Below, piece by piece: positions 20,839-30,748 of a stretch of DNA of 38,105 nt. Under the pieces are notes generated by a model. It made no database searches. It had not been told where the DNA came from and saw only the letters and a program-made list of their open reading frames with translations. The position numbers and the translations under genes were made by a program. The stretch is from Candidatus Kryptoniota bacterium. GTDB lineage: Bacteria; Bacteroidota; Ignavibacteria; Kryptoniales; JAKASW01. Location of the stretch: positions 1-38,105 of the forward strand of contig JAHECO010000037.1 of NCBI GenBank assembly GCA_024641705.1. Reading direction: 5' to 3'. How positions within the stretch are numbered: position 1 is the first letter of the stretch; the number at the start of each line of letters is the position of its first letter.

Positions 20839-21545
20839 TGGCCGAAGAGTCCCTCCAGGAATCCAGGAAAAAAGGGGGGATGCTTTTCGTCGTTTCGACA
20901 CCCATCGGCAACCTTTCAGACATGACTTACCGGGCTGTTGACACTTTGAAGGAAGTTGACTTCATAATTGCGGAGGATACGAGGACGAGTTCCGTCCTTC
21001 TCAAGCACTATGGCATAACGAAACCCATGATGAGCTTCCACAGCCACAGCGGGGCGGGCAGGTCGGACGAAATCATCGACCGGATTGCGCGCGGGTCGAG
21101 CGCTGCCCTCATCACCGATGCCGGGACTCCGGGAATCTCCGATCCCGGTTACACGCTGGTTAGAGACGCTCTGGCTGCGGGTGTCGAAGTCGTACCCATA
21201 CCGGGTCCGACCGCATTTGTCACGGCGTTGTCTTCGAGCGGTTTACGGACAGATCGATTCATTTTCGAAGGCTTCCTCCCGTTGAAAAAGGGAAGGCAGA
21301 AGAAGCTTCAGCAGCTTTCTTCTGAGAAGCGGACGATAATTCTGTACGAATCGCCCCACCGGATCGAGAAAACCCTGCTCGAGCTTTCGTGGCATTTCGG
21401 TGAACGTCGTTGCGTGGTGGGGAGGGAGCTGACCAAGGTACATGAGACTTTTTACAGGGGCACGTTCTCCGAAGTCCTGAAAATGATGAGCCCCGGCGAA
21501 AAGCGCGGGGAGTTCGTGATAATCGTGGAAGGCTCGGAGGAATGA
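20838..21545 (+). CDS. rsmI: 16S rRNA (cytidine(1402)-2'-O)-methyltransferase
   Basis: A 235-residue SAM-dependent methyltransferase of the tetrapyrrole-methylase fold that acts on C1402 in the 16S decoding centre. Its landmarks are LFVVSTPIGNLSDMTYRAV, IIAEDTRTSSVLLKHYGI, the ALITDAGTPGISDPGY loop and PIPGPTAFVTALSSSGL. The late EGFLPLKKGRQKK, TIILYESPHRI and VVGRELTKVHETFYRG also match. I chose GTG at 20838 because GGGGAG lies 5 bases upstream and it overlaps the nadE stop (TAGTG). ATG at 20880 is an alternative that would begin right at the core fold, but its purine run abuts the ATG. It overlaps the next gene by ATGA. Confidence 0.95.
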   Translation: MAEESLQESRKKGGMLFVVSTPIGNLSDMTYRAVDTLKEVDFIIAEDTRTSSVLLKHYGITKPMMSFHSHSGAGRSDEIIDRIARGSSAALITDAGTPGISDPGYTLVRDALAAGVEVVPIPGPTAFVTALSSSGLRTDRFIFEGFLPLKKGRQKKLQQLSSEKRTIILYESPHRIEKTLLELSWHFGERRCVVGRELTKVHETFYRGTFSEVLKMMSPGEKRGEFVIIVEGSEE

Positions 21546-22219
21546 GAAGCTTGATCCCGAATTCTGTGGAGAACGGCTTCAAGAGAGGATTGGAGCCGCT
21601 GGCACAATGGCTCGGCAGGCGGAATGCCAATCCCAACTGGCTGACCACTCTCGGTTTCCTTCTGAGTATCTTCTGCGCGTGGGAAATAGCGGCCGGGAAA
21701 CTGGTTACGGGCGGGTTCCTCGTGCTTATCAGCGGGTTGTTCGATACTATAGACGGTGCGGTCGCCCGCAAGACCGGACGTGTCACCCGGTTCGGTGCGG
21801 TTTACGACTCCACGATGGACAGGTACTCGGAGGTGACGGTATTCTTCGGGCTTGGCTTTTATCTCATTGGAAATCATTTTTATTTAACGTCAGTGGCGGC
21901 TGTGTTCGCGGTGGGCGGCTCGATTATGGTCAGTTACATAAGAGCGCGCGCCGAAACTCTCGGGTTCAAGGCCAATGTCGGGCTTGCCAGGCGGCAGGAA
22001 CGCGTGGTCATTCTCGGTGTCGGGCTGATCCTGAATGCGCTGGACCCTTTTTTTGACAGAGTCTACGACGGCATGATTGAACAGGCGTTCGGCAAAGGGT
22101 TCATTCATCCCCCGCTTGCTCTTGCTGCAACGGTCTTTCTGCTGGCGATTCTTACTAACTTAACAGCAATCCAGAGGTTGTTCTATGTCTACAAACAATT
22201 CAAAGAAGAAAATCAATAA
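21542..22219 (+). CDS. CDP-alcohol phosphatidyltransferase, probable inositol lipid synthase
   Basis: A 225-residue inner-membrane enzyme with about five or six helices. The complete CDP-alcohol phosphotransferase signature is present: Asp68, Asp71-Gly72, Ala75-Arg76, Gly85, Asp89 and Asp93, with the required spacings. The early NPNWLTTLGFLLS is also typical. The family swaps CMP of CDP-diacylglycerol for an alcohol. The next gene, overlapping by 35 bases, makes inositol phosphate. The best guess is therefore phosphatidylinositol-phosphate (or phosphatidylinositol) synthase, rather than a glycerol-phosphate or serine enzyme. That choice rests on context. Its start overlaps the rsmI stop (ATGA), with GGAGG very close to the ATG. 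Confidence 0.9.
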   Translation: MRSLIPNSVENGFKRGLEPLAQWLGRRNANPNWLTTLGFLLSIFCAWEIAAGKLVTGGFLVLISGLFDTIDGAVARKTGRVTRFGAVYDSTMDRYSEVTVFFGLGFYLIGNHFYLTSVAAVFAVGGSIMVSYIRARAETLGFKANVGLARRQERVVILGVGLILNALDPFFDRVYDGMIEQAFGKGFIHPPLALAATVFLLAILTNLTAIQRLFYVYKQFKEENQ

Positions 22220-23552
22220 AGCGGAAGGGCCTTTAACCGTTTTCACTCCCGGAATAGGGGCGGTCTCCACGACGTTCATGGCCGGCGTCGAACTGATCAG
22301 GAAAGGCTTGCGTGAGCCCGTCGGTTCTCTGACGCAGATGTCTGCCATCCGGTTAGGAAAAAGGACGGAAAAGAGAAACCCGCTCATAAAGGACTTTGTC
22401 CCCCTTGCGCCGCTGGAGAATCTGAAATTTGCGGGCTGGGACATCTTCGGCGGGACCGCGTACGAGGCCGCGAAGAAGTCGAGCGTGTTAAGTGGAAACG
22501 ACCTTGAGCTGGTGAAACCGTTTCTGAAAGGCATCGAAGTCATGCCGGCGGTTTTTGAGCAGAATTACGTGAAGCGGCTGCGCCCGAAAGTCATCAAGAA
22601 GGCAAAGACCAAGATGGAGTTCGCGGAGCAGCTCCGCGATGACATAAGAGCAACGATGAAGAGGCACGGATCGAAGCGGGGAGTTATGGCATGGTGCGGA
22701 AGCACTGAAGTCTACATAGAAGAGAGCGATGTGCACGGCAGCCTGAGAAATTTCGAGAAGGGGCTTGCGAAGAACGACCCGCGGATCGCACCGAGCATGG
22801 TCTATGCCTACGCGGCATTGAAGGAAGGCATTCCTTTCGCCAACGGAGCACCCAACCTGACGGTCGATATGCCTGCGATGCATGAGCTTGCCGCGAAGGA
22901 GGGACTCCCGATCGCGGGGAAGGACTTCAAGACGGGGCAGACTCTGCTCAAGACGGTCCTCGCTCCGATGCTTAAAGCGAGGATGCTCGGGTTGAACGGC
23001 TGGTTCTCGGCAAATATCCTGGGGAATCAGGATGGCGAGGTGCTCGACGAGCCGGGTTCTTTTAAAACCAAAGAGGTCAGCAAACTCTCCGTGCTCGAAC
23101 ACATCCTGCAGCCTCATCTTTATCCGCGGCTTTATTCCGATTACTATCATAAGGTCAGGATAAACTACTATCCTCCGAGGGGAGACGACAAAGAGAGCTG
23201 GGACAATATCGATATTTTCGGTTGGCTCGGTTATCCGATGCAGATAAAGGTCAATTTCCTCTGCCGCGATTCGATCCTCGCGGCACCGGTCCTCCTCGAT
23301 CTGGTACTCTTTCTCGATTTTGCGCATCGCGCCGGGCTATCGGGCATTCAGGAATGGCTCTCTTTCTACTTCAAGAGCCCGATGTGTGCTCCGGACCTGT
23401 ATCCGGAACACGATCTGTTCATTCAGCTGACGAAACTCAAGAACTATCTTCGTTACCTCATGGGAGAAGAGCTGATAACGCACCTGGGAGTCGAGTATTA
23501 TTCCGACACTTCCGGAAGAAGACCGACACACCGGCGTTCTCCGAACAAATAG
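22185..23552 (+). CDS. Myo-inositol-1-phosphate synthase
   Basis: A 455-residue NAD-dependent enzyme that converts glucose 6-phosphate to 1D-myo-inositol 3-phosphate. The N-terminal Rossmann part has FTPGIGAVSTTFMAGVELIR and FAGWDIFGGTAYEAA. A central WCGSTE motif is followed by FANGAPNLTVDMPAMHELA and the active-site blocks IAGKDFKTGQTLLKTVLAPM and LGLNGWFSANILGNQDGEVL. The late HKVRINYYPPRGDDKESWDN and LGYPMQIKVNFLCRDSILAAP agree. The start ATG lies inside the end of the CDP-alcohol transferase gene, with AGAGG about 7 bases upstream. The overlap implies joint production, which supports an inositol-lipid pathway. Confidence 0.94.
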   Translation: MSTNNSKKKINKAEGPLTVFTPGIGAVSTTFMAGVELIRKGLREPVGSLTQMSAIRLGKRTEKRNPLIKDFVPLAPLENLKFAGWDIFGGTAYEAAKKSSVLSGNDLELVKPFLKGIEVMPAVFEQNYVKRLRPKVIKKAKTKMEFAEQLRDDIRATMKRHGSKRGVMAWCGSTEVYIEESDVHGSLRNFEKGLAKNDPRIAPSMVYAYAALKEGIPFANGAPNLTVDMPAMHELAAKEGLPIAGKDFKTGQTLLKTVLAPMLKARMLGLNGWFSANILGNQDGEVLDEPGSFKTKEVSKLSVLEHILQPHLYPRLYSDYYHKVRINYYPPRGDDKESWDNIDIFGWLGYPMQIKVNFLCRDSILAAPVLLDLVLFLDFAHRAGLSGIQEWLSFYFKSPMCAPDLYPEHDLFIQLTKLKNYLRYLMGEELITHLGVEYYSDTSGRRPTHRRSPNK

Positions 23553-23558
23553 GAGCGG

Positions 23559-24158
23559 ATGAAGGAAGAAGAACGTCACAGGAGAGCTGAAGAGGACGCG
23601 GTACTCGTCAAGCGGGCCATGGCCGGCGATGAGAAGGCATTCAAGGCTCTCATAAGAAGATACAAGAACCCGATTGCCCAGATAGTCTACAAGCTGATAA
23701 GGGATCGGAGCCAGGTTGAAGACCTCACCCAGGAGGTCTTCATCAAAGCCTTTCAACATCTCGGGGACTTCGACTACGAACACCAGTTTGCCTCGTGGCT
23801 GTTCAAGATCGCGAACAATCACTGTATAGACTATATAAGGAAAAAGAGACTGAGGGTTTACTCCATAGACGAGCAGATCCGCACGGAAGAAGGGCAGATG
23901 GAGCATGAGATTCCGGACTCGACATACGAGCCCGATCTGAATATGCTCCGCGAGCAAAAAACGAGGCTCATACGAACCGCAATCGACTCCCTTCCCAAGA
24001 AGTATCGCGAGGTGATCATTCTAAGGCACCAGGAAGAGTTGAGTTATGAGGAAATCGCGAAAAAAACGGGGCTGCCGGTGAACACAATAAAGGTACAACT
24101 GTTCCGGGCCAGAGAGATGATGTACAAGTTTCTCAAGGATAAAATCAGGCATTACTGA
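23559..24158 (+). CDS. ECF-type RNA polymerase sigma factor
   Basis: A 199-residue sigma-70 family protein with only regions 2 and 4. Region 2 (about 20-95) includes LIRRYKNPIAQIVYKLI, VEDLTQEVFIKAFQ and FASWLFKIANNHCIDYIRKK. A short acidic linker is followed by region 4 (about 135-190), with SLPKKYREVIILRHQEELSYEEIA and the recognition helix in LPVNTIKVQLFRAREMM. It starts six bases after the inositol synthase stop, with AGGAG just upstream. No anti-sigma factor with a membrane span follows. The next gene is a secreted toastrack-type protein. The regulon is unknown. Confidence 0.94.
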   Translation: MKEEERHRRAEEDAVLVKRAMAGDEKAFKALIRRYKNPIAQIVYKLIRDRSQVEDLTQEVFIKAFQHLGDFDYEHQFASWLFKIANNHCIDYIRKKRLRVYSIDEQIRTEEGQMEHEIPDSTYEPDLNMLREQKTRLIRTAIDSLPKKYREVIILRHQEELSYEEIAKKTGLPVNTIKVQLFRAREMMYKFLKDKIRHY

Positions 24159-24193
24159 AACTTATGCTGAAATCCCCCGTAATCGGAGTTAGC

Positions 24194-25024
24194 ATGAAGA
24201 CCCTATTGACCATATTGGTGTTGGCATCGGTAGCTTTCGGCCAGCGATCCCTCAGGACGGGGGAGGATCTGGGCGGTGCTAAGGCGATCAAGGCCGTCAT
24301 CAAGGTCGGCGCAGTCGACCTGAAGCTGAAGGGAACGGACAATCCCGAAAAGGCATTCCAGCTTTATTACAGCTATACCAATGATGAGAAGGTCCCGAAG
24401 CTCATGTACGAGGTGGACGGGGACAATGGGCTCTTCAAGTTGTCCAACGACAGGCAGCACACGAATTTCCCGTTCCTTGGCTTCGGGAAAGACAAAGACT
24501 CGGTGGATCTTGAACTTGCCAACTCCGTTCCCGTTTCTCTGGAGATGGCCTTTGGTGTTTGCGATGCGGCCGTTGACCTTGGTGGGATGGAGATTTCGGA
24601 CGCGAGCTTCTCGACAGGGGTGTGCAGCTTTGACCTGAATTTCTCGACCCCCAACAAGATCGAGTGCGACCATATCGTGGTCAAGACAGGGATATCCAGC
24701 GTGACGGTCGAGAACCTCGCCAATGCGCATGCTAAGACCGTGGAGTTCAACGGCGGACTGGGTTCCATGAAGATCGACTTCGGGGGAAAACTTGTGAGCG
24801 ACTGCGACGTAAGGATAAAGACCGGTTTGGGATCCGTAGACATAGCGATCCCGTCGGATATCAACACCACGATCACGACGCCGGAGAGCTTCCTGACATC
24901 GGTGGACGTAGCGGGCTTCTATTCCCAGGGCGGCGGCGTCTACCGCTCAAGCGAGAAGAAGGGACCGAAACTCAGTATCTTCATCGACTCCGCGATGGGC
25001 GGCGTTAAGATAAAGAGCTACTAG
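24194..25024 (+). CDS. Secreted toastrack-type (DUF4097-like) beta-repeat protein
   Basis: A 276-residue exported protein. I chose ATG at 24194 because GGAG lies 5 bases upstream and it opens directly into a signal peptide (MKTLLTILVLASVAFGQ). An earlier in-frame ATG at 24164 would place ten extra residues before it. The mature part is made of short beta-strands with repeated motifs such as GVCSFDLNFSTPN, KTGISSVTVENL, NGGLGSMKIDFGG and KTGLGSVDIAIPS. This is the parallel toastrack fold seen in DUF4097/LiaF-like domains. In other bacteria such proteins accompany ECF sigma systems and envelope-stress circuits. A link to the sigma factor encoded 35 bases upstream is inferred. Its 3' end overlaps the convergent GH57 gene by four bases. 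Confidence 0.75.
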   Translation: MKTLLTILVLASVAFGQRSLRTGEDLGGAKAIKAVIKVGAVDLKLKGTDNPEKAFQLYYSYTNDEKVPKLMYEVDGDNGLFKLSNDRQHTNFPFLGFGKDKDSVDLELANSVPVSLEMAFGVCDAAVDLGGMEISDASFSTGVCSFDLNFSTPNKIECDHIVVKTGISSVTVENLANAHAKTVEFNGGLGSMKIDFGGKLVSDCDVRIKTGLGSVDIAIPSDINTTITTPESFLTSVDVAGFYSQGGGVYRSSEKKGPKLSIFIDSAMGGVKIKSY

Positions 25025-27126
25025 AAAAGTCTGAACTTAGCCAGTCCCTGCCGGGGCAGGGAATCCACGAGCGTGTTCGAATCAAAGGCGGCGACATTGA
25101 AGGCTGCCTCGCCCGGCTTCACCTCTTCGTAAGAGATCCCGACCTGCAGTGTCTTTCCCGACCTAGCGTACTCCAGTGAGCAGCGCCCTGCATCGCCTGC
25201 CTTGTCCCGTCTGTACGAGAGCCCGTTTCCGATCTCAAGGGTCATCCTGAAGGGAGAGAAGAATTCGATGACGATCCTTCCAGAAGGCGGTTGTTCGCTC
25301 GTTTCGATCATCAGATAAATTGTCTTCCTGTCATTGCCGAAACTTACCCTCTTGATCTGCAATCCCGTCCTCTGCATCGCACCCGCGGGACGCTCCTGCT
25401 CCACGTACCCCGCATCTTTCCACTCTTCGCCGGTACGTCCGGCTGCGATCTTCGGTGAGACAGTTCGCGACGGCTGGCGATAACTGAGCATCTCGATTCT
25501 TCTCTTGATCGGCTCATCCAGCGACGCGGGAGGCCGGACATCTATCGCAACATAAATCTGCTTCAGGTGGTATCTGAAAAGCTCGTCGAACTCGGGAGCC
25601 TGAACCGACTTGTGGTCGTCGCCGTACCACCAGCACCAGTCCGATCCCTCGGCTATCGTGATTTCCCGGAATGCCTGAGTCCGTTGTTTTGGCGACAGTT
25701 TGCCTGATTTCTTGTCGAAAGTCTTTCGCGCTTCGTGCAGCAGGTCCCACGCCCGGTTGTCTTCCTCCTGGCCGATCCATATGTCGAAGTTTCCGTTTAT
25801 CCACGAACCCGGTTCGATATGCCGGAGGGTATTTTCTTTTTCTACCTTTATACCTGAAGGAAGGACTGTCTGAACGCGAGTCTCGTTCGAAAGGAGGTAA
25901 TAGAGGGTCCTGAGAAAGTCCTTGCCGTCGCTCTGGTAGAATTCCCACGCATTTTCCCCGTCGAGAATCACCGGCACTACTGCCGCCTCCAGACCCTTCT
26001 CGCCGTACGTGTCGACGATGGAGGTCCTGATCCTGATGAGGTGGGACATGAAGTCGTGCGCCGCGTCGTCGGGGCTTCGGCCCGAATAGACGAACCCGAT
26101 TTTGTCTGAAAGATCGTGATCGCGAAAGAATATCCTGACGCTGCCATTCTCGGAGTTGAAGTTGTACGGGAAGTATTTCTCCAGAAAATTCTCCGATGAG
26201 ATCTTACCGGACCTGGCGAGCGTTTTGTGCAGGATCGCCTCATCGGTCGCTACCCAGGCGACACGGTTCGCGGCCATCAGTTTCAGTGCTGCGTCGCTGA
26301 CGGAGCCCTCGCTGGGCCACATGCCCGCGGGCCGCGCGCCGAACACGATTTTTCCGTAGTCGAGGGCGGATTTTATTTGGCGCTCGGCATCCTCCGCATA
26401 TCTGAACCTCGACTGCGGAAGGAGGGCATGAGGATTAGCGGCAGAGGCAACGTTGCTGTCGCACAGAAGAGGGAGTATCGGATGGTAAAACGGCGACACG
26501 GATATTTCGATCTGCCCCCGTTTTGCCGCCTTTATGTGGTGAGGGATAATCCTGCCGATTATTTCCATGTGTGCGGCAAGGAGCCGCTGTTTCTCGGCCT
26601 CGGTGAAGTTCCGCTGTTTGTCCAGGTATGATTTGAACGGCGGATCGAACCTGGAATACTCCCCGACCCAGGCCAGGTTCCACCAGACCTGAAGATCCCG
26701 GAAGTCCTGCGCGCTGAACCTGTCCCTGGCTGAGTACAGATCGCTCTCGCTCCTGATGTTCCCGCGCTTTGACAGGAGCTCCGAGTAACGCGGGTAGCGC
26801 CGGATCATCCGCTCGTGGTTGGCGAGGAAGAATGTCTTCAGCGCGCTCAACTTGTCCGCTTGTGTGAATGTCTCCGGATTCTTTCGCGAGAGAACATAAG
26901 CATCGTCAGTGGCGTTGCCGTCCAGATAATCCTTGATTTGTTCGAGGAGGGACGGCGCGAAGTTGAAAGTCTGTTTTATGCTCGGGTAGTCGTCCAGTAT
27001 TCGCACCATGTCCCAGTAGTCCTTGATCCCGTGCATTCGCACCCAGGGCATAAGAAAAGTGCCGTCGGTTTTGTAGTACGGCTGGTGATGGTGCCAGATG
27101 AAGAGAACTCTAAGTGGTGGAGTCAA
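25021..27126 (-). CDS. Glycoside hydrolase family 57 (alpha-amylase/glucanotransferase type)
   Basis: A protein of about 701 residues with a GH57 seven-stranded barrel at the N-terminus. It starts LRVLFIWHHHQPYY, the family's first motif. The catalytic pair is present: Glu273 in GMWPSEGSVSD (nucleophile) and Asp389 in VILDGENAWE (acid/base). ATDEAILHKTL precedes and a helical domain and C-terminal beta domain follow. Family members hydrolyse or transfer alpha-glucans such as glycogen, starch and maltodextrins. No signal peptide is seen, so it should be cytoplasmic. I prefer TTG at 27126, which overlaps the upstream stop (TTGA) and starts right at the motif. GTG at 27171 would add 15 residues and overlap the GWxTD gene more deeply. 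Confidence 0.9.
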   Translation of the reverse strand: MTPPLRVLFIWHHHQPYYKTDGTFLMPWVRMHGIKDYWDMVRILDDYPSIKQTFNFAPSLLEQIKDYLDGNATDDAYVLSRKNPETFTQADKLSALKTFFLANHERMIRRYPRYSELLSKRGNIRSESDLYSARDRFSAQDFRDLQVWWNLAWVGEYSRFDPPFKSYLDKQRNFTEAEKQRLLAAHMEIIGRIIPHHIKAAKRGQIEISVSPFYHPILPLLCDSNVASAANPHALLPQSRFRYAEDAERQIKSALDYGKIVFGARPAGMWPSEGSVSDAALKLMAANRVAWVATDEAILHKTLARSGKISSENFLEKYFPYNFNSENGSVRIFFRDHDLSDKIGFVYSGRSPDDAAHDFMSHLIRIRTSIVDTYGEKGLEAAVVPVILDGENAWEFYQSDGKDFLRTLYYLLSNETRVQTVLPSGIKVEKENTLRHIEPGSWINGNFDIWIGQEEDNRAWDLLHEARKTFDKKSGKLSPKQRTQAFREITIAEGSDWCWWYGDDHKSVQAPEFDELFRYHLKQIYVAIDVRPPASLDEPIKRRIEMLSYRQPSRTVSPKIAAGRTGEEWKDAGYVEQERPAGAMQRTGLQIKRVSFGNDRKTIYLMIETSEQPPSGRIVIEFFSPFRMTLEIGNGLSYRRDKAGDAGRCSLEYARSGKTLQVGISYEEVKPGEAAFNVAAFDSNTLVDSLPRQGLAKFRLF

Positions 27127-28418
27127 TTTCGTGTGAAGTCCATTCCTGAATATGGTGAATTGCTGTCCCACGCCGGGCTTCGGAGCCTGTAATCGCCGAA
27201 GCCGGTGTCGTCCACGAATAAAAACCTGCGGGCCTTCCTGTAATACTGCCAGATCTCGTAGGGCTTGCTGTCAATGTTGAAAGGATGCCTGTCGACGTTG
27301 TCGGGAGGGCCGAATAGAATATATATCATCCCCCTGTCGCTTTTCCAGCCGGCGAAGAAATGTGTGAAGTGTTCGTTGGCATAGGAAACCCTGTTATAGT
27401 ACTCTCTCATTGCGAACATCGCGTCGGAGGACAGGTTGGAGTGGTACGAGTGCCAGAATGACAGGAACCTCTTCGCCTTTGTCCCGATGTCGGGCGAAGC
27501 TTTGATGCTGTCTATGGTGGAAGAACTCGCGATGAAAAGCAGTTCGTCCGCCGCTTCGTCGAGGTCGGTTATCGTAGGCGGAAGACCCGGGAAGAATAGA
27601 CTGAAAGCCGTCTCCGCGGTTGCCGTTATCGGTTCACCTTTCTCATTTGAACCTCGGACCGACACCCTGAGAACATAGCCGCTCATTGAAAGCGAAGTCT
27701 TGGGTATTTCGCCAAAAATCTGAGTGACGGGGTAGCGCGAATCGAACCAAGTCGAGTTGGAATAGAGAATCCTGTTTTCAGTGCCGATTATCTCGGTCGT
27801 GACATTGAACGAGTCGAGCTTGTCGGAAGGGTAGACCTCGTAGAAGACCGGGAAAGAATCGCTCTCCGAAAATACGTTGCCCCCGACGTTTGGAACGATA
27901 GTGCGCTTTTCACCGCTGGCGGTGGCGGTGAACAGCAGCATTATATTTGAGATCGAGGTCGCCTGCGAAGTGAAATCTCTCGCCAGTATGTCCCGCTGGA
28001 CCGTGTATGAATCTCCGGTCTCCGGTTCGGTGACGGTCACGTAGAGCGCGTACGGTCCAGGCTTCACGACGAAGTGCCGTTCAGAGGAGGACAATATGTT
28101 CCTGTTTTCCGTTTCGTCGAATCCCCTGCAGTTCACTTTCTCCCCCCAAGACTCGTCGACGGCCACTCTGCCGTCCTTGCCGACGAAGCGCGTGTTTATC
28201 TCGTATGCTGCCGTAAACTCGTTTCCGCTCCTGATGAAATGGAGCTCGCTGTACGGGATCTGGAAGTAAAAATCGAACCTGCTTTCGGAGGAGGGGGTTT
28301 TGAAATTAAGAGCTTCGAAGTGGAAGTGAGGGGCTGTCGCGGAGTATGGGCGCTGCATCTCTACCTGCGCCGATGCCGGTAGAGCCAGCAGAAGCAGGGA
28401 CATTATCGCCCTCGTCAC
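27123..28418 (-). CDS. GWxTD domain-containing exported protein
   Basis: A 431-residue exported protein. The start is GTG at 28418 with a perfect GGAGG upstream. A signal peptide (MTRAIMSLLLLALPASA) is followed by beta-rich domains up to about residue 280. The C-terminal third carries the GWxTD family core: YANEHFTHFFAGWKSDRG, MIYILFGPPDNVDRHP, PYEIWQYY and FLFVDDTGFGDYRL. The name-giving motif reads GWKSD, so the usual Thr is replaced by Ser. GWxTD proteins occur in many Gram-negative phyla and have no proven function. It lies 11 bases downstream of rimO and overlaps the GH57 start, so these three are probably one transcript. Confidence 0.88.
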   Translation of the reverse strand: MTRAIMSLLLLALPASAQVEMQRPYSATAPHFHFEALNFKTPSSESRFDFYFQIPYSELHFIRSGNEFTAAYEINTRFVGKDGRVAVDESWGEKVNCRGFDETENRNILSSSERHFVVKPGPYALYVTVTEPETGDSYTVQRDILARDFTSQATSISNIMLLFTATASGEKRTIVPNVGGNVFSESDSFPVFYEVYPSDKLDSFNVTTEIIGTENRILYSNSTWFDSRYPVTQIFGEIPKTSLSMSGYVLRVSVRGSNEKGEPITATAETAFSLFFPGLPPTITDLDEAADELLFIASSSTIDSIKASPDIGTKAKRFLSFWHSYHSNLSSDAMFAMREYYNRVSYANEHFTHFFAGWKSDRGMIYILFGPPDNVDRHPFNIDSKPYEIWQYYRKARRFLFVDDTGFGDYRLRSPAWDSNSPYSGMDFTRN

Positions 28419-28429
28419 GGTTTTCCTCC

Positions 28430-29716
28430 TCAGACAGCTGTGCCGTAAAGGTCGTGCTCGTACGAGTCGTTGATCGTAACATCCGCGAATGTCCCCGCGT
28501 CAAGGGCTTTTGCGGAGGATATTATCACCTCCGAATCGATTTCGGGGGCGTCATGGCTTGTTCGCCCGACATAGTTGTCGCCGTCTTTCCTGTCGACGAT
28601 GACCTGCAGTGTTGCACCGACCTTCTTCTCGTTCGATCCCTTCATGATTGCCCGCTGCGCTTCCATAACGGCGGCGTGCCGCCTTTCCTTCTCTTCCTGC
28701 GGCACGGGATCGCCGAGGATCGCTGCGGTCGTTCCTTCTTCCACGGAATAAGTGAATACTCCAAGCCTGTCGAACTTGAACTCGTTCACGAACCCGAGCA
28801 GCTCTTCGAATTCCTTCTCGCCTTCTCCGGGATATCCGACGATCAGCGTCGTCCGTATCGCGATGCCGGGGACCTTTTCACGGATGGCGTAAAGGAACTC
28901 CTCCAGCCGGCGGCGCGTGATGCCGCGGCGCATCGATTTGAGAAGCTTGTCCGAAATATGCTGAATCGGAATGTCTATGTATTTCAGAATTTTCTTCCCG
29001 TCGCGCATCACCTTCAGAAGCTCCTTCGGAAACTTCGCCGGATATGCGTACATAAGACGGATCCACTCGAGGCCGGCCACCTTGTCCAGCTTCTCCATCA
29101 GTTCCGGCAGCGCCCGTTTGCCTTGCGTGTCGAGACCGTAGTATGTCGTATCCTGTCCGACGACGATCAACTCTTTGACCCCCTTCGCGGCAAGCATCCC
29201 GGCTTCATGTAAAATTTCATCCGCCGGTCTCGATACGTGTTTTCCCCGCATGAGCGGGATCGCGCAGAAGGAACAGGGATTATCGCAGCCTTCGGATATC
29301 TTCAGGTAGGCGTAGTGGGGGGGCGTTGTGAGGACACGGTCCCCGGCCATCTCGTACTTGTACTCGGCCTGAAATTCGTTCAGGACGTTCTTGATCTCGT
29401 TGGTGCCGAAGAAGGCGTCTACTTCGGTCAGTCCCTCTTTGAGTTCCTTCTTGTACCTCTCCACGAGACATCCGGTGACGACGACTTTGCCGACGGTGCC
29501 GGATTTCTTTTGCTGGGCAACATGGAGGATCGTCTCGATAGATTCCTGCTTTGCCGCGTCGATGAAGCCGCATGTGTTGACGACCGCGATGTCCGCCCCG
29601 TCCGGGGTCTCGGAGAGGGTATAGCCGTTCGCCTTCAGTTGCGCCGCGAGCACTTCGCTGTCCACCTGGTTCTTAGGGCATCCAAGTGTTACAATGTGGA
29701 CCTTTTTGGCCTTCAT
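28430..29716 (-). CDS. rimO: Ribosomal protein S12 methylthiotransferase
   Basis: A 428-residue radical-SAM enzyme that methylthiolates an aspartate of ribosomal protein S12. The N-terminal methylthiotransferase domain holds the three cluster cysteines in LGCPKNQVDSE, VNTCGFI and VTGCLVERY. The radical-SAM CxxxCxxC motif is in SEGCDNPCSFCAIPLMRG, followed by VVGQDTTYYGLD, IQHISDKLLKSMRRG and TLIVGYPGEGE. A C-terminal TRAM domain (about 365-428) binds the substrate. The LGCPKN pattern and YxDIPIQH favour RimO over MiaB. I chose ATG at 29716; GTG at 29740 would add eight residues without a better ribosome site. It leads a minus-strand unit with the GWxTD and GH57 genes. Confidence 0.95.
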   Translation of the reverse strand: MKAKKVHIVTLGCPKNQVDSEVLAAQLKANGYTLSETPDGADIAVVNTCGFIDAAKQESIETILHVAQQKKSGTVGKVVVTGCLVERYKKELKEGLTEVDAFFGTNEIKNVLNEFQAEYKYEMAGDRVLTTPPHYAYLKISEGCDNPCSFCAIPLMRGKHVSRPADEILHEAGMLAAKGVKELIVVGQDTTYYGLDTQGKRALPELMEKLDKVAGLEWIRLMYAYPAKFPKELLKVMRDGKKILKYIDIPIQHISDKLLKSMRRGITRRRLEEFLYAIREKVPGIAIRTTLIVGYPGEGEKEFEELLGFVNEFKFDRLGVFTYSVEEGTTAAILGDPVPQEEKERRHAAVMEAQRAIMKGSNEKKVGATLQVIVDRKDGDNYVGRTSHDAPEIDSEVIISSAKALDAGTFADVTINDSYEHDLYGTAV

Positions 29717-29797
29717 ACAACAATTTACCTTGATCGGCACTCGTATTCAATGAGAGACGGCGAGAGGCGAGCGGTGCAAACGAGATACGCCCGAAAA

Positions 29798-29919: not shown

Positions 29920-30212
29920 CAATCGAATTCCGTTTAGTCAAAGTGGTGAAGCGAATGGATTCGTGCCGGTAAGCATCCCGGGCATGGATCCGGATCCCAT
30001 CTTCAATATGAAACGAGTCCCAGGGCCGACACCTTACAATGATTCATCCGCCACTCAAGTCGGTCTGCCACAATATCCTCCCCCCGCCGAGCATTTCCGA
30101 ATGAAAGAGCGACGAATGGATTGGGGCATGAATTTACACTCGAGAGATTGTGTTGAACTAATCAGAGCTGCTTGTTCAAGGAACAATTGCAAACATGGTG
30201 ATAAGACAAGTC
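29920..30212. other. stretch between tRNA-Thr and the truncated YpdA homology
   Basis: This stretch is open in the ypdA frame from about 29963, but the roughly 85 residues it would encode resemble nothing I recognise. Codon use looks unlike the neighbours, with many rare and AT-rich codons near 30120-30200. It contains a GGATCCGGATCC block near 29987. No integrase, attachment-site repeat of the tRNA 3' end, or other gene was seen. Confidence 0.5.
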
Positions 30213-30748
30213 CGAACGTGTCGCACTATTTTCGCGAGCCCGGCAATCATTTCGGTCAGAAGGTAGTCGTAGTGGGCGGCAAGAACAGTGCGGTCGAAGC
30301 CGCATTGGACCTTTACAGGCACGGTGTCGAAGTTGCCTTGCTCTACAGAAAAGAGTGGTTCGGGAAAAGCGTGAAGTACTGGATCCTGCCCGACATAGAA
30401 AACAGGGTGAAGAACGGAGAAATAAAGACCAGGTTCAATTGTAGAGTCGCGGAAGTGCGCCCCGACAGGGTTATTGTCGAGACGGACGGTAAGTCGGAGG
30501 AGATCGAGTGCGATTTCGTTTACGCACTGACAGGGTATCATCCAGACGTGAATTTCCTCCGCGACGTCGGGGTCGAGGTCGATGAGAAGACCGGGATTCC
30601 GAGACACAACGAAGATATTTACGAAACGAACGTTAAGGGCTTGTACGTGGCGGGCTCCATCGTTGCCGGATATGACTGCAACAAGATATTCATCGAGAAC
30701 GGCAGAGAACACGGCAAGTTTATCGCAAAGAGCCTGGCAGCGCAATGA
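29963..30748 (+). CDS. YpdA-like bacillithiol-disulfide reductase family protein, N-terminally truncated
   Basis: The frame encodes up to 261 residues, but recognisable homology begins only at about residue 87 (HYFREPGNHFGQ). From there it matches the NAD(P)H-binding half and C-terminus of YpdA/thioredoxin-reductase-like proteins: VVVVGGKNSAVEAALDLYRHG, SVKYWILPDIENRVKNG, DFVYALTGYHPDVNFL and GLYVAGSIVAGYDCNKIFIE. The N-terminal FAD-binding segment (GxGxxG) and the cysteine that YpdA needs are missing. The preceding 85 residues look non-native. The start shown is the first GTG, with a weak ribosome site; the true start is unsure. It overlaps the next gene by ATGA. It is probably a remnant, perhaps kept because its end drives translation of that gene. 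Confidence 0.72.
   Translation: MPVSIPGMDPDPIFNMKRVPGPTPYNDSSATQVGLPQYPPPAEHFRMKERRMDWGMNLHSRDCVELIRAACSRNNCKHGDKTSPNVSHYFREPGNHFGQKVVVVGGKNSAVEAALDLYRHGVEVALLYRKEWFGKSVKYWILPDIENRVKNGEIKTRFNCRVAEVRPDRVIVETDGKSEEIECDFVYALTGYHPDVNFLRDVGVEVDEKTGIPRHNEDIYETNVKGLYVAGSIVAGYDCNKIFIENGREHGKFIAKSLAAQ

Follow-up and report, generated by a model that had tools for sequence, protein, structure and literature searches.

Stop/start overlaps of the ATGA type appear as a general coupling device in the accessible parts of two reports (PMC6728339, PMC10666635), and the title of the second states that coupled pairs often encode subunits of complexes. For the GH57 glycoside hydrolases, the accessible part of another source (PMC6037648) assigns catalytic roles to a Glu and an Asp, and gives a terminal WW in CSR-5 as a mark of the amylopullulanases, 'although not unambiguously'. 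A literature search on the GWxTD family (PF20094/TIGR04514) found no paper, its two matches being unrelated clinical case reports.

The window considered here (i.e., the whole 38,105-nucleotide stretch of DNA that was analysed) brings these subjects together in one locus, where a GH57 gene overlaps the end of a GWxTD gene that itself follows rimO. The locus has the four-base stop/start overlap, and lacks the separate ribosome-binding site, in the manner of the termination-reinitiation NTGA pairs presented in the accessible parts of PMC6728339 and PMC10666635. It differs from those pairs in that the register stays fixed although the start codon varies within the genus of the window (ATG, GTG, TTG), and in that the upstream partner has been swapped from GWxTD to rimO in one clade. 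The explanation that we consider likely, with good confidence, is a rimO-GWxTD-GH57 operon in which GH57 is a lineage-specific tenant reinitiating on the preceding stop, the coupling existing without joint function and the GWxTD protein probably serving the envelope.

Gene order and protein families

All three genes lie on the reverse strand, and each of the three family assignments exceeds its curated cut-offs in profile searches. The first, rimO, encodes the ribosomal protein S12 methylthiotransferase (28430–29740; TIGR01125, 490.8 bits against a cut-off of 356.95) and is followed by a gap of 11 bases (28419–28429) in which a GAGGAGG Shine-Dalgarno sequence adjoins the rimO stop. The GWxTD-domain protein comes next (27123–28418; 431 aa, GTG start), and its stop TGA (27125–27123) shares two bases with a TTG of the GH57 frame (27126–27124), forming the TTGA overlap at 27123–27126. 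From this TTG, the GH57 glycoside hydrolase has 701 aa (25021–27126); read from an upstream GTG, the same ORF covers 25021–27171. The 11-base spacing, the TTGA overlap and the GWKSD form of the family motif, all described in the earlier note, are borne out by these coordinates and by the protein sequence.

The GWxTD protein scores 76.5 bits on PF20094 (cut-off 26.9) and 97.3 bits on TIGR04514 (cut-off 28). Its GWxTD domain is encoded by 27231–27587 (reverse strand), as placed by a search match over 27231–27578 and by the domain model, and in its GWKSD motif Ser replaces the Thr. Across 122 aligned domains the Gly and Asp of the motif are invariant and the Trp is kept in at least 90%; the protein shares with its family both the scores above cut-off and the nearly or fully invariant Trp and Asp. 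What sets it apart from other family members is its place in a rimO-linked orthologue group that precedes GH57 in its genus only, where orthologues range down to 48% identity. Some sequences were removed from the alignments. Alignment A1 lost L111:14762-16000, an unrelated ORF that had been chained, and alignment A3 lost L126 and L127, which duplicate G001 and G011, as well as L200, whose stretch contains two stops.

Two beta-sandwich domains (residues about 33–146 and 160–273) precede the C-terminal GWxTD domain (about 278–416), and the AlphaFold model of the full protein (pLDDT 84.9, 45 sequences) likewise shows two beta sandwiches, followed by a C-terminal domain of helices and strands. The GWxTD domain modelled alone reached a pLDDT of 89.1 and a pTM of 0.85 (122 sequences), and a Foldseek search with this model gave 81 matches to solved structures at E values up to 10, none of them at E ≤0.001. 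A BamE/SmpA/OsmE (BLIP-like) fold had been guessed ahead of that search; the weak matches to 4dm5 (OsmE; E 2.8, Z 3.2) and to the BLIP-like 3d4e (E 1.6, Z 3.4) are not significant, and a sequence-profile search of solved structures with GWxTD returned one chance match (E 1.2). The N-terminal domains resemble common sandwich folds, including those of the generic kind present in GH2 and other proteins, a likeness that says nothing on GWxTD function.

The GH57 protein scores 189.7 bits on PF03065 (cut-off 21.2). Numbered from the TTG, E273 (WPSEGS) and D389 (DGEN) are invariant in 23/23 aligned relatives (alignment A2, from which G005 was dropped for its shorter GH57 frame), and by our own reading they would represent CSR-3 and CSR-4. 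With these catalytic residues and a CSR-5-like stretch, AEGSDWCWW, ending in two tryptophans, the protein agrees with the amylopullulanase type as given in the accessible part of PMC6037648 and is predicted to belong to it, although it has no visible signal peptide and no curated NCBIfam name at cut-off. Solved GH57 chains (9iht, 8zyi, 9jlq and others) match at about 270 bits over residues 21–537 (counted from the GTG); those chains have about 477–485 aa, whereas the protein of the window is longer, with an additional C-terminal region that matches nothing in Pfam. By inspection, no signal peptide is seen in GH57, while the GWxTD protein begins with a hydrophobic stretch followed by ASA-Q that is signal-peptide-like, which suggests that the two proteins probably occupy different compartments.

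Neighbours of GWxTD genes

A search of 61 genomes (the window's own, 12 of the same genus, seven of the same order and 41 of the same class) found GWxTD-domain matches in 61/61 and GH57 matches in 45/61. Neighbours were counted in two sets of loci, a relative set consisting of the best GWxTD locus of each of 59 relatives, taken in addition to the window (the G042 locus is not part of it), and a named set of 80 loci, the best 80 of 586 relatives in a genome collection. Loci too short on one side were excluded from the counts, and L223, the second locus of G007, was part of the 144-locus search described below and not of the set A count. It should be noted that the sets (A and B) share some genomes, so that their counts are not to be added, and that relatedness inflates the counts, which are therefore not counts of independent events.

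In the relative set, rimO lies within 700 bases upstream of GWxTD in 41 of the 57 assessable loci, and GH57 lies downstream in 8/58, every one in the genus, with the window additional to these. The named set (best 80 of 586) has rimO upstream in 54/71 assessable loci and GH57 downstream in 2/74, both from the genus. In 35/67, Omp85 is encoded downstream at a distance of no more than 2.5 kb. Among the 48 loci of that same best-80 set with long flanks, rimO was found in 36, Omp85 in 25, CdsA in 19, GH57 in one and none of these in 12. Records that carry the names candidate division KSB1 (L178, L180), Calditrichota/Calditrichia (L183, L198) and others contain rimO paired with GWxTD; among the best 80 of 586, no such pair was seen in the loci of Neomarinimicrobiota, Rhodothermales, Kapaibacterium and Zixiibacteriota that have enough flank. 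In our reading, rimO-GWxTD is an ancient gene pair. Among the fetched loci outside the genus GH57 never adjoins GWxTD, though many of these genomes hold GH57 relatives elsewhere, and the recurrent GWxTD-GH57 neighbourhood for which the earlier note had proposed a survey does not extend beyond one genus.

In many Ignavibacteria-type genomes the order around GWxTD is GT9, DUF3108, a conserved ORF, a CPBP protease, DUF2007, CdsA, rimO, GWxTD, sometimes PfkB, Omp85, UbiA, RNase HII and YraN (the last two named by reading of the sequences), with CdsA upstream of GWxTD and an Omp85 with three POTRA matches downstream. A class-wide form of the block (GT9-DUF3108-CPBP-CdsA-rimO-GWxTD-(PfkB)-Omp85-UbiA) is present in many of L077–L103 and L128–L205, and rimO-GWxTD is its most persistent pair. 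Envelope genes are frequent near GWxTD, and housekeeping genes are present too. Further afield, the GWxTD gene of Neomarinimicrobiota (L176, L187, L191, L195) shares an overlap with the gene upstream of it, which encodes about 555 aa and in L176 has a PorZ-type propeller match, and in Kapaibacterium (L194) an upstream M50 protease gene overlaps GWxTD. MreB lies downstream of GWxTD in L187. Other GWxTD genes of the window's genome adjoin a heptosyltransferase-family gene, an M50 protease gene with CBS domains, an acyl-CoA dehydrogenase gene and pdxA; a second GWxTD group in the genus sits behind an M50 site-2-type protease, with overlap (L207:8972-11315; L219).

These neighbourhoods bear on the strongest alternative, in which GWxTD assists outer-membrane assembly from the periplasm, acting with the adjoining three-POTRA Omp85, and GH57 is incidental. 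Such a role would refine the operon explanation and does not exclude it. The downstream Omp85 in about half of the assessable named loci, within a block that includes CdsA, GT9, DUF3108 and UbiA, is consistent with it, as are the putative export signal seen by inspection, the heptosyltransferase-family and M50 neighbours of the paralogues and the PorZ-type match in Neomarinimicrobiota. However, Omp85 lies on another contig in the window's own genome (there followed by an ORF that reads as UbiA-like), linkage to rimO reaches further than linkage to Omp85, the block also holds the non-envelope genes rimO, RNase HII and YraN, and the GWxTD domain lacks a significant fold match. On balance, the accessory role is a tentative reading, with perhaps one chance in four of being correct. 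Somewhat less likely still, and speculative, is its fuller version, in which the three-POTRA Omp85 machine has the rimO-linked GWxTD proteins as its partners in the periplasm, the GWxTD domain, its fold unsolved, is the working part, and GH57 is a late passenger; if true, this would add a new outer-membrane biogenesis factor of Ignavibacteria, KSB1, Calditrichota and related bacteria, placed in an ancient CdsA-rimO-Omp85 block.

Returning to GWxTD within the rimO-led operon, the protein is probably periplasmic, with a part in envelope biogenesis. The envelope is a more promising place than alpha-glucan metabolism to look for its role, but this second point is a lead and not a result. Outside the genus, GH57 neighbours tatC and polyprenyl synthetase genes or has priA or pseudouridine synthase genes nearby. 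It adjoins an Omp85 gene in G055, G046 and G028, three genomes of another family. This adjacency is the sole result tying GH57 to the envelope block; as GH57 and GWxTD are each neighbours of Omp85, it might hint at an envelope link that would speak against GH57 as a mere passenger. In two of these three genomes (loci L124, L125, L059, L060 and L062 for the three together), checked at length, RNase HII and YraN matches come next, and GH57 beside Omp85 there is near the place held elsewhere by GWxTD.

Loss of GWxTD and the proposed alpha-glucan link

Three genomes of the genus (G003, G010, G012) have GH57 and, by genome search, GWxTD only as distant paralogues. In all three, GH57 comes directly after rimO, and the overlap of its TTG with the rimO TGA keeps the register seen with GWxTD. 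A tree built from rimO, GH57 and three neighbouring proteins places them in one supported clade inside a group (support 1.000) that otherwise keeps GWxTD, indicating a single GWxTD loss after which GH57 was re-coupled to rimO. G007 is uninformative on this loss, its assembly also lacking rimO.

The alternative implied by the earlier note, that GWxTD and GH57 are functionally paired in the handling of alpha-glucan, where GWxTD senses, binds or exports glucan, GH57 processes it and coupling keeps their ratio, is consistent with the exact NTGA coupling throughout the genus genomes that have both genes together, and might draw on the resemblance of the GWxTD beta sandwiches to generic ones of GH2 and other proteins. 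It is nonetheless highly unlikely. GH57 persists without GWxTD in the clade described above, 3/3 re-coupled to rimO; outside the genus, all fetched loci keep GWxTD without an adjoining GH57, despite GH57 relatives in most of the genomes searched; and the predicted compartments of the two proteins differ.

For glycogen genes near GWxTD, 144 loci were searched with six proteins, on which the neighbour test outside the genus depends: the window GH57 and five proteins of its own genome (one phosphorylase, three GH13 and the second GH57). Clear glycogen-type matches in the catalytic range were found in 2/144 loci (L215 and the edge of L193), and a glycogen-gene neighbourhood of GWxTD was rejected on this count. 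Most GH13 matches fall on the C-terminal stretch of two long GH13 queries, which may be a type IX sorting tail; one match, in L140, runs from outside this stretch into it, and in L073 and L127 the GH57b query simply recovers the GH57 gene. The window's own genome has a second full-size GH57 (C37), a partial GH57 match (C93), GH13 genes and one phosphorylase, and no match to PF08323 (bacterial glycogen/starch synthase type) was found in the whole genome (G000). The window cluster holds no further alpha-glucan genes, the PF00343, PF00128 and other PF03065 genes lying off the window contig (C18). The survey removes the alpha-glucan lead for GWxTD outside one genus and offers in its place a more widespread one, rimO and an envelope block with Omp85.

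The probable coupled start of GH57

Nine genomes of the genus have the two genes together (the window genome, G001, G002, G004, G005, G006, G008, G009 and G011), and in 9/9 a start codon stands at the exact -1 register of the GWxTD TGA (ATG in two, GTG in five, TTG in two). That GH57 truly starts at the GTG at 27171, with a 49-base overlap and a TTGA due to chance, is very improbable, as this codon, which in the window is open and in the GH57 frame and which recurs at the same place in G008, is absent in the other 7/9, with stops in frame closing off such a start in G009, G001 and others, and GH57 relatives outside the genus begin near the TTG position, just ahead of the same first strand (e.g., M-EPIRVAFLWHQHQPYYK). 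The coupled TTG start put forward in the earlier note is therefore well supported by the relatives, and the condition it had set against itself, that the upstream GTG is the start in all GH57 orthologues, proves false.

At the usual distance before the GH57 start, AGGA, GGAG and GAGG are absent in 12/12 junctions (G004 has GGGG), unlike the GWxTD start of the window with its GAGGAGG. Given the conserved overlap, translational coupling, as claimed in the earlier note, is probable, and reinitiation is its natural reading. The architecture is not rare in the window's genome: among close co-directional ORF pairs from the window and six other stretches (mechanical ORFs of at least 120 aa), 22/56 have an NTGA overlap, the focal pair counted, suggesting that it is normal there.

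A sequence of events consistent with the operon explanation can be proposed. A cytoplasmic amylopullulanase-type GH57 gene would have landed directly behind the ancient rimO-GWxTD pair in one genus, and would have lost, or never had, a ribosome-binding site of its own. Ribosomes finishing the upstream gene would reinitiate at the overlapping NTG of the NTGA, and GH57 output would then track translation of the preceding cistron, which is GWxTD in nine genomes and rimO in three. GH57 would be the last cistron, a passenger, of a rimO-led operon presumably read as one shared transcript, and the coupling would be an expression device and no proof that GWxTD and GH57 work together. As the old and widespread neighbours of GWxTD are rimO and envelope genes, the GH57 overlap looks like ordinary operon packing. 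Conversely, order and overlap persist while the GWxTD orthologues diverge as far as they do within the genus, so that some benefit of joint expression is possible, and what the title of PMC10666635 says on subunits of complexes likewise counts against a mere passenger. The locus is ordinary as a coupling and modestly interesting as a lead on GWxTD, and the swap of the upstream partner with the register unchanged shows cleanly, in a natural case, that NTGA coupling can be conserved without implying shared function.

Two observations concern the flanks of the locus. At 25021–25024 the palindrome CTAG forms the overlapping stops, on opposite strands, of GH57 and a convergent LiaF-like gene, which belongs to a run of genes (21542–25024; phosphatidylinositol-phosphate-synthase-like, inositol-1-phosphate synthase, ECF sigma factor, LiaF/toast-rack protein) that is mostly conserved across the genus. 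On the other side, a pyridine-nucleotide oxidoreductase-like ORF (29963–30748; 261 aa) covers no more than the C-terminal half of its Pfam model, and counterparts in relatives have 331–335 aa; its N-terminal part looks to be out of frame, through either an assembly error or a broken gene.
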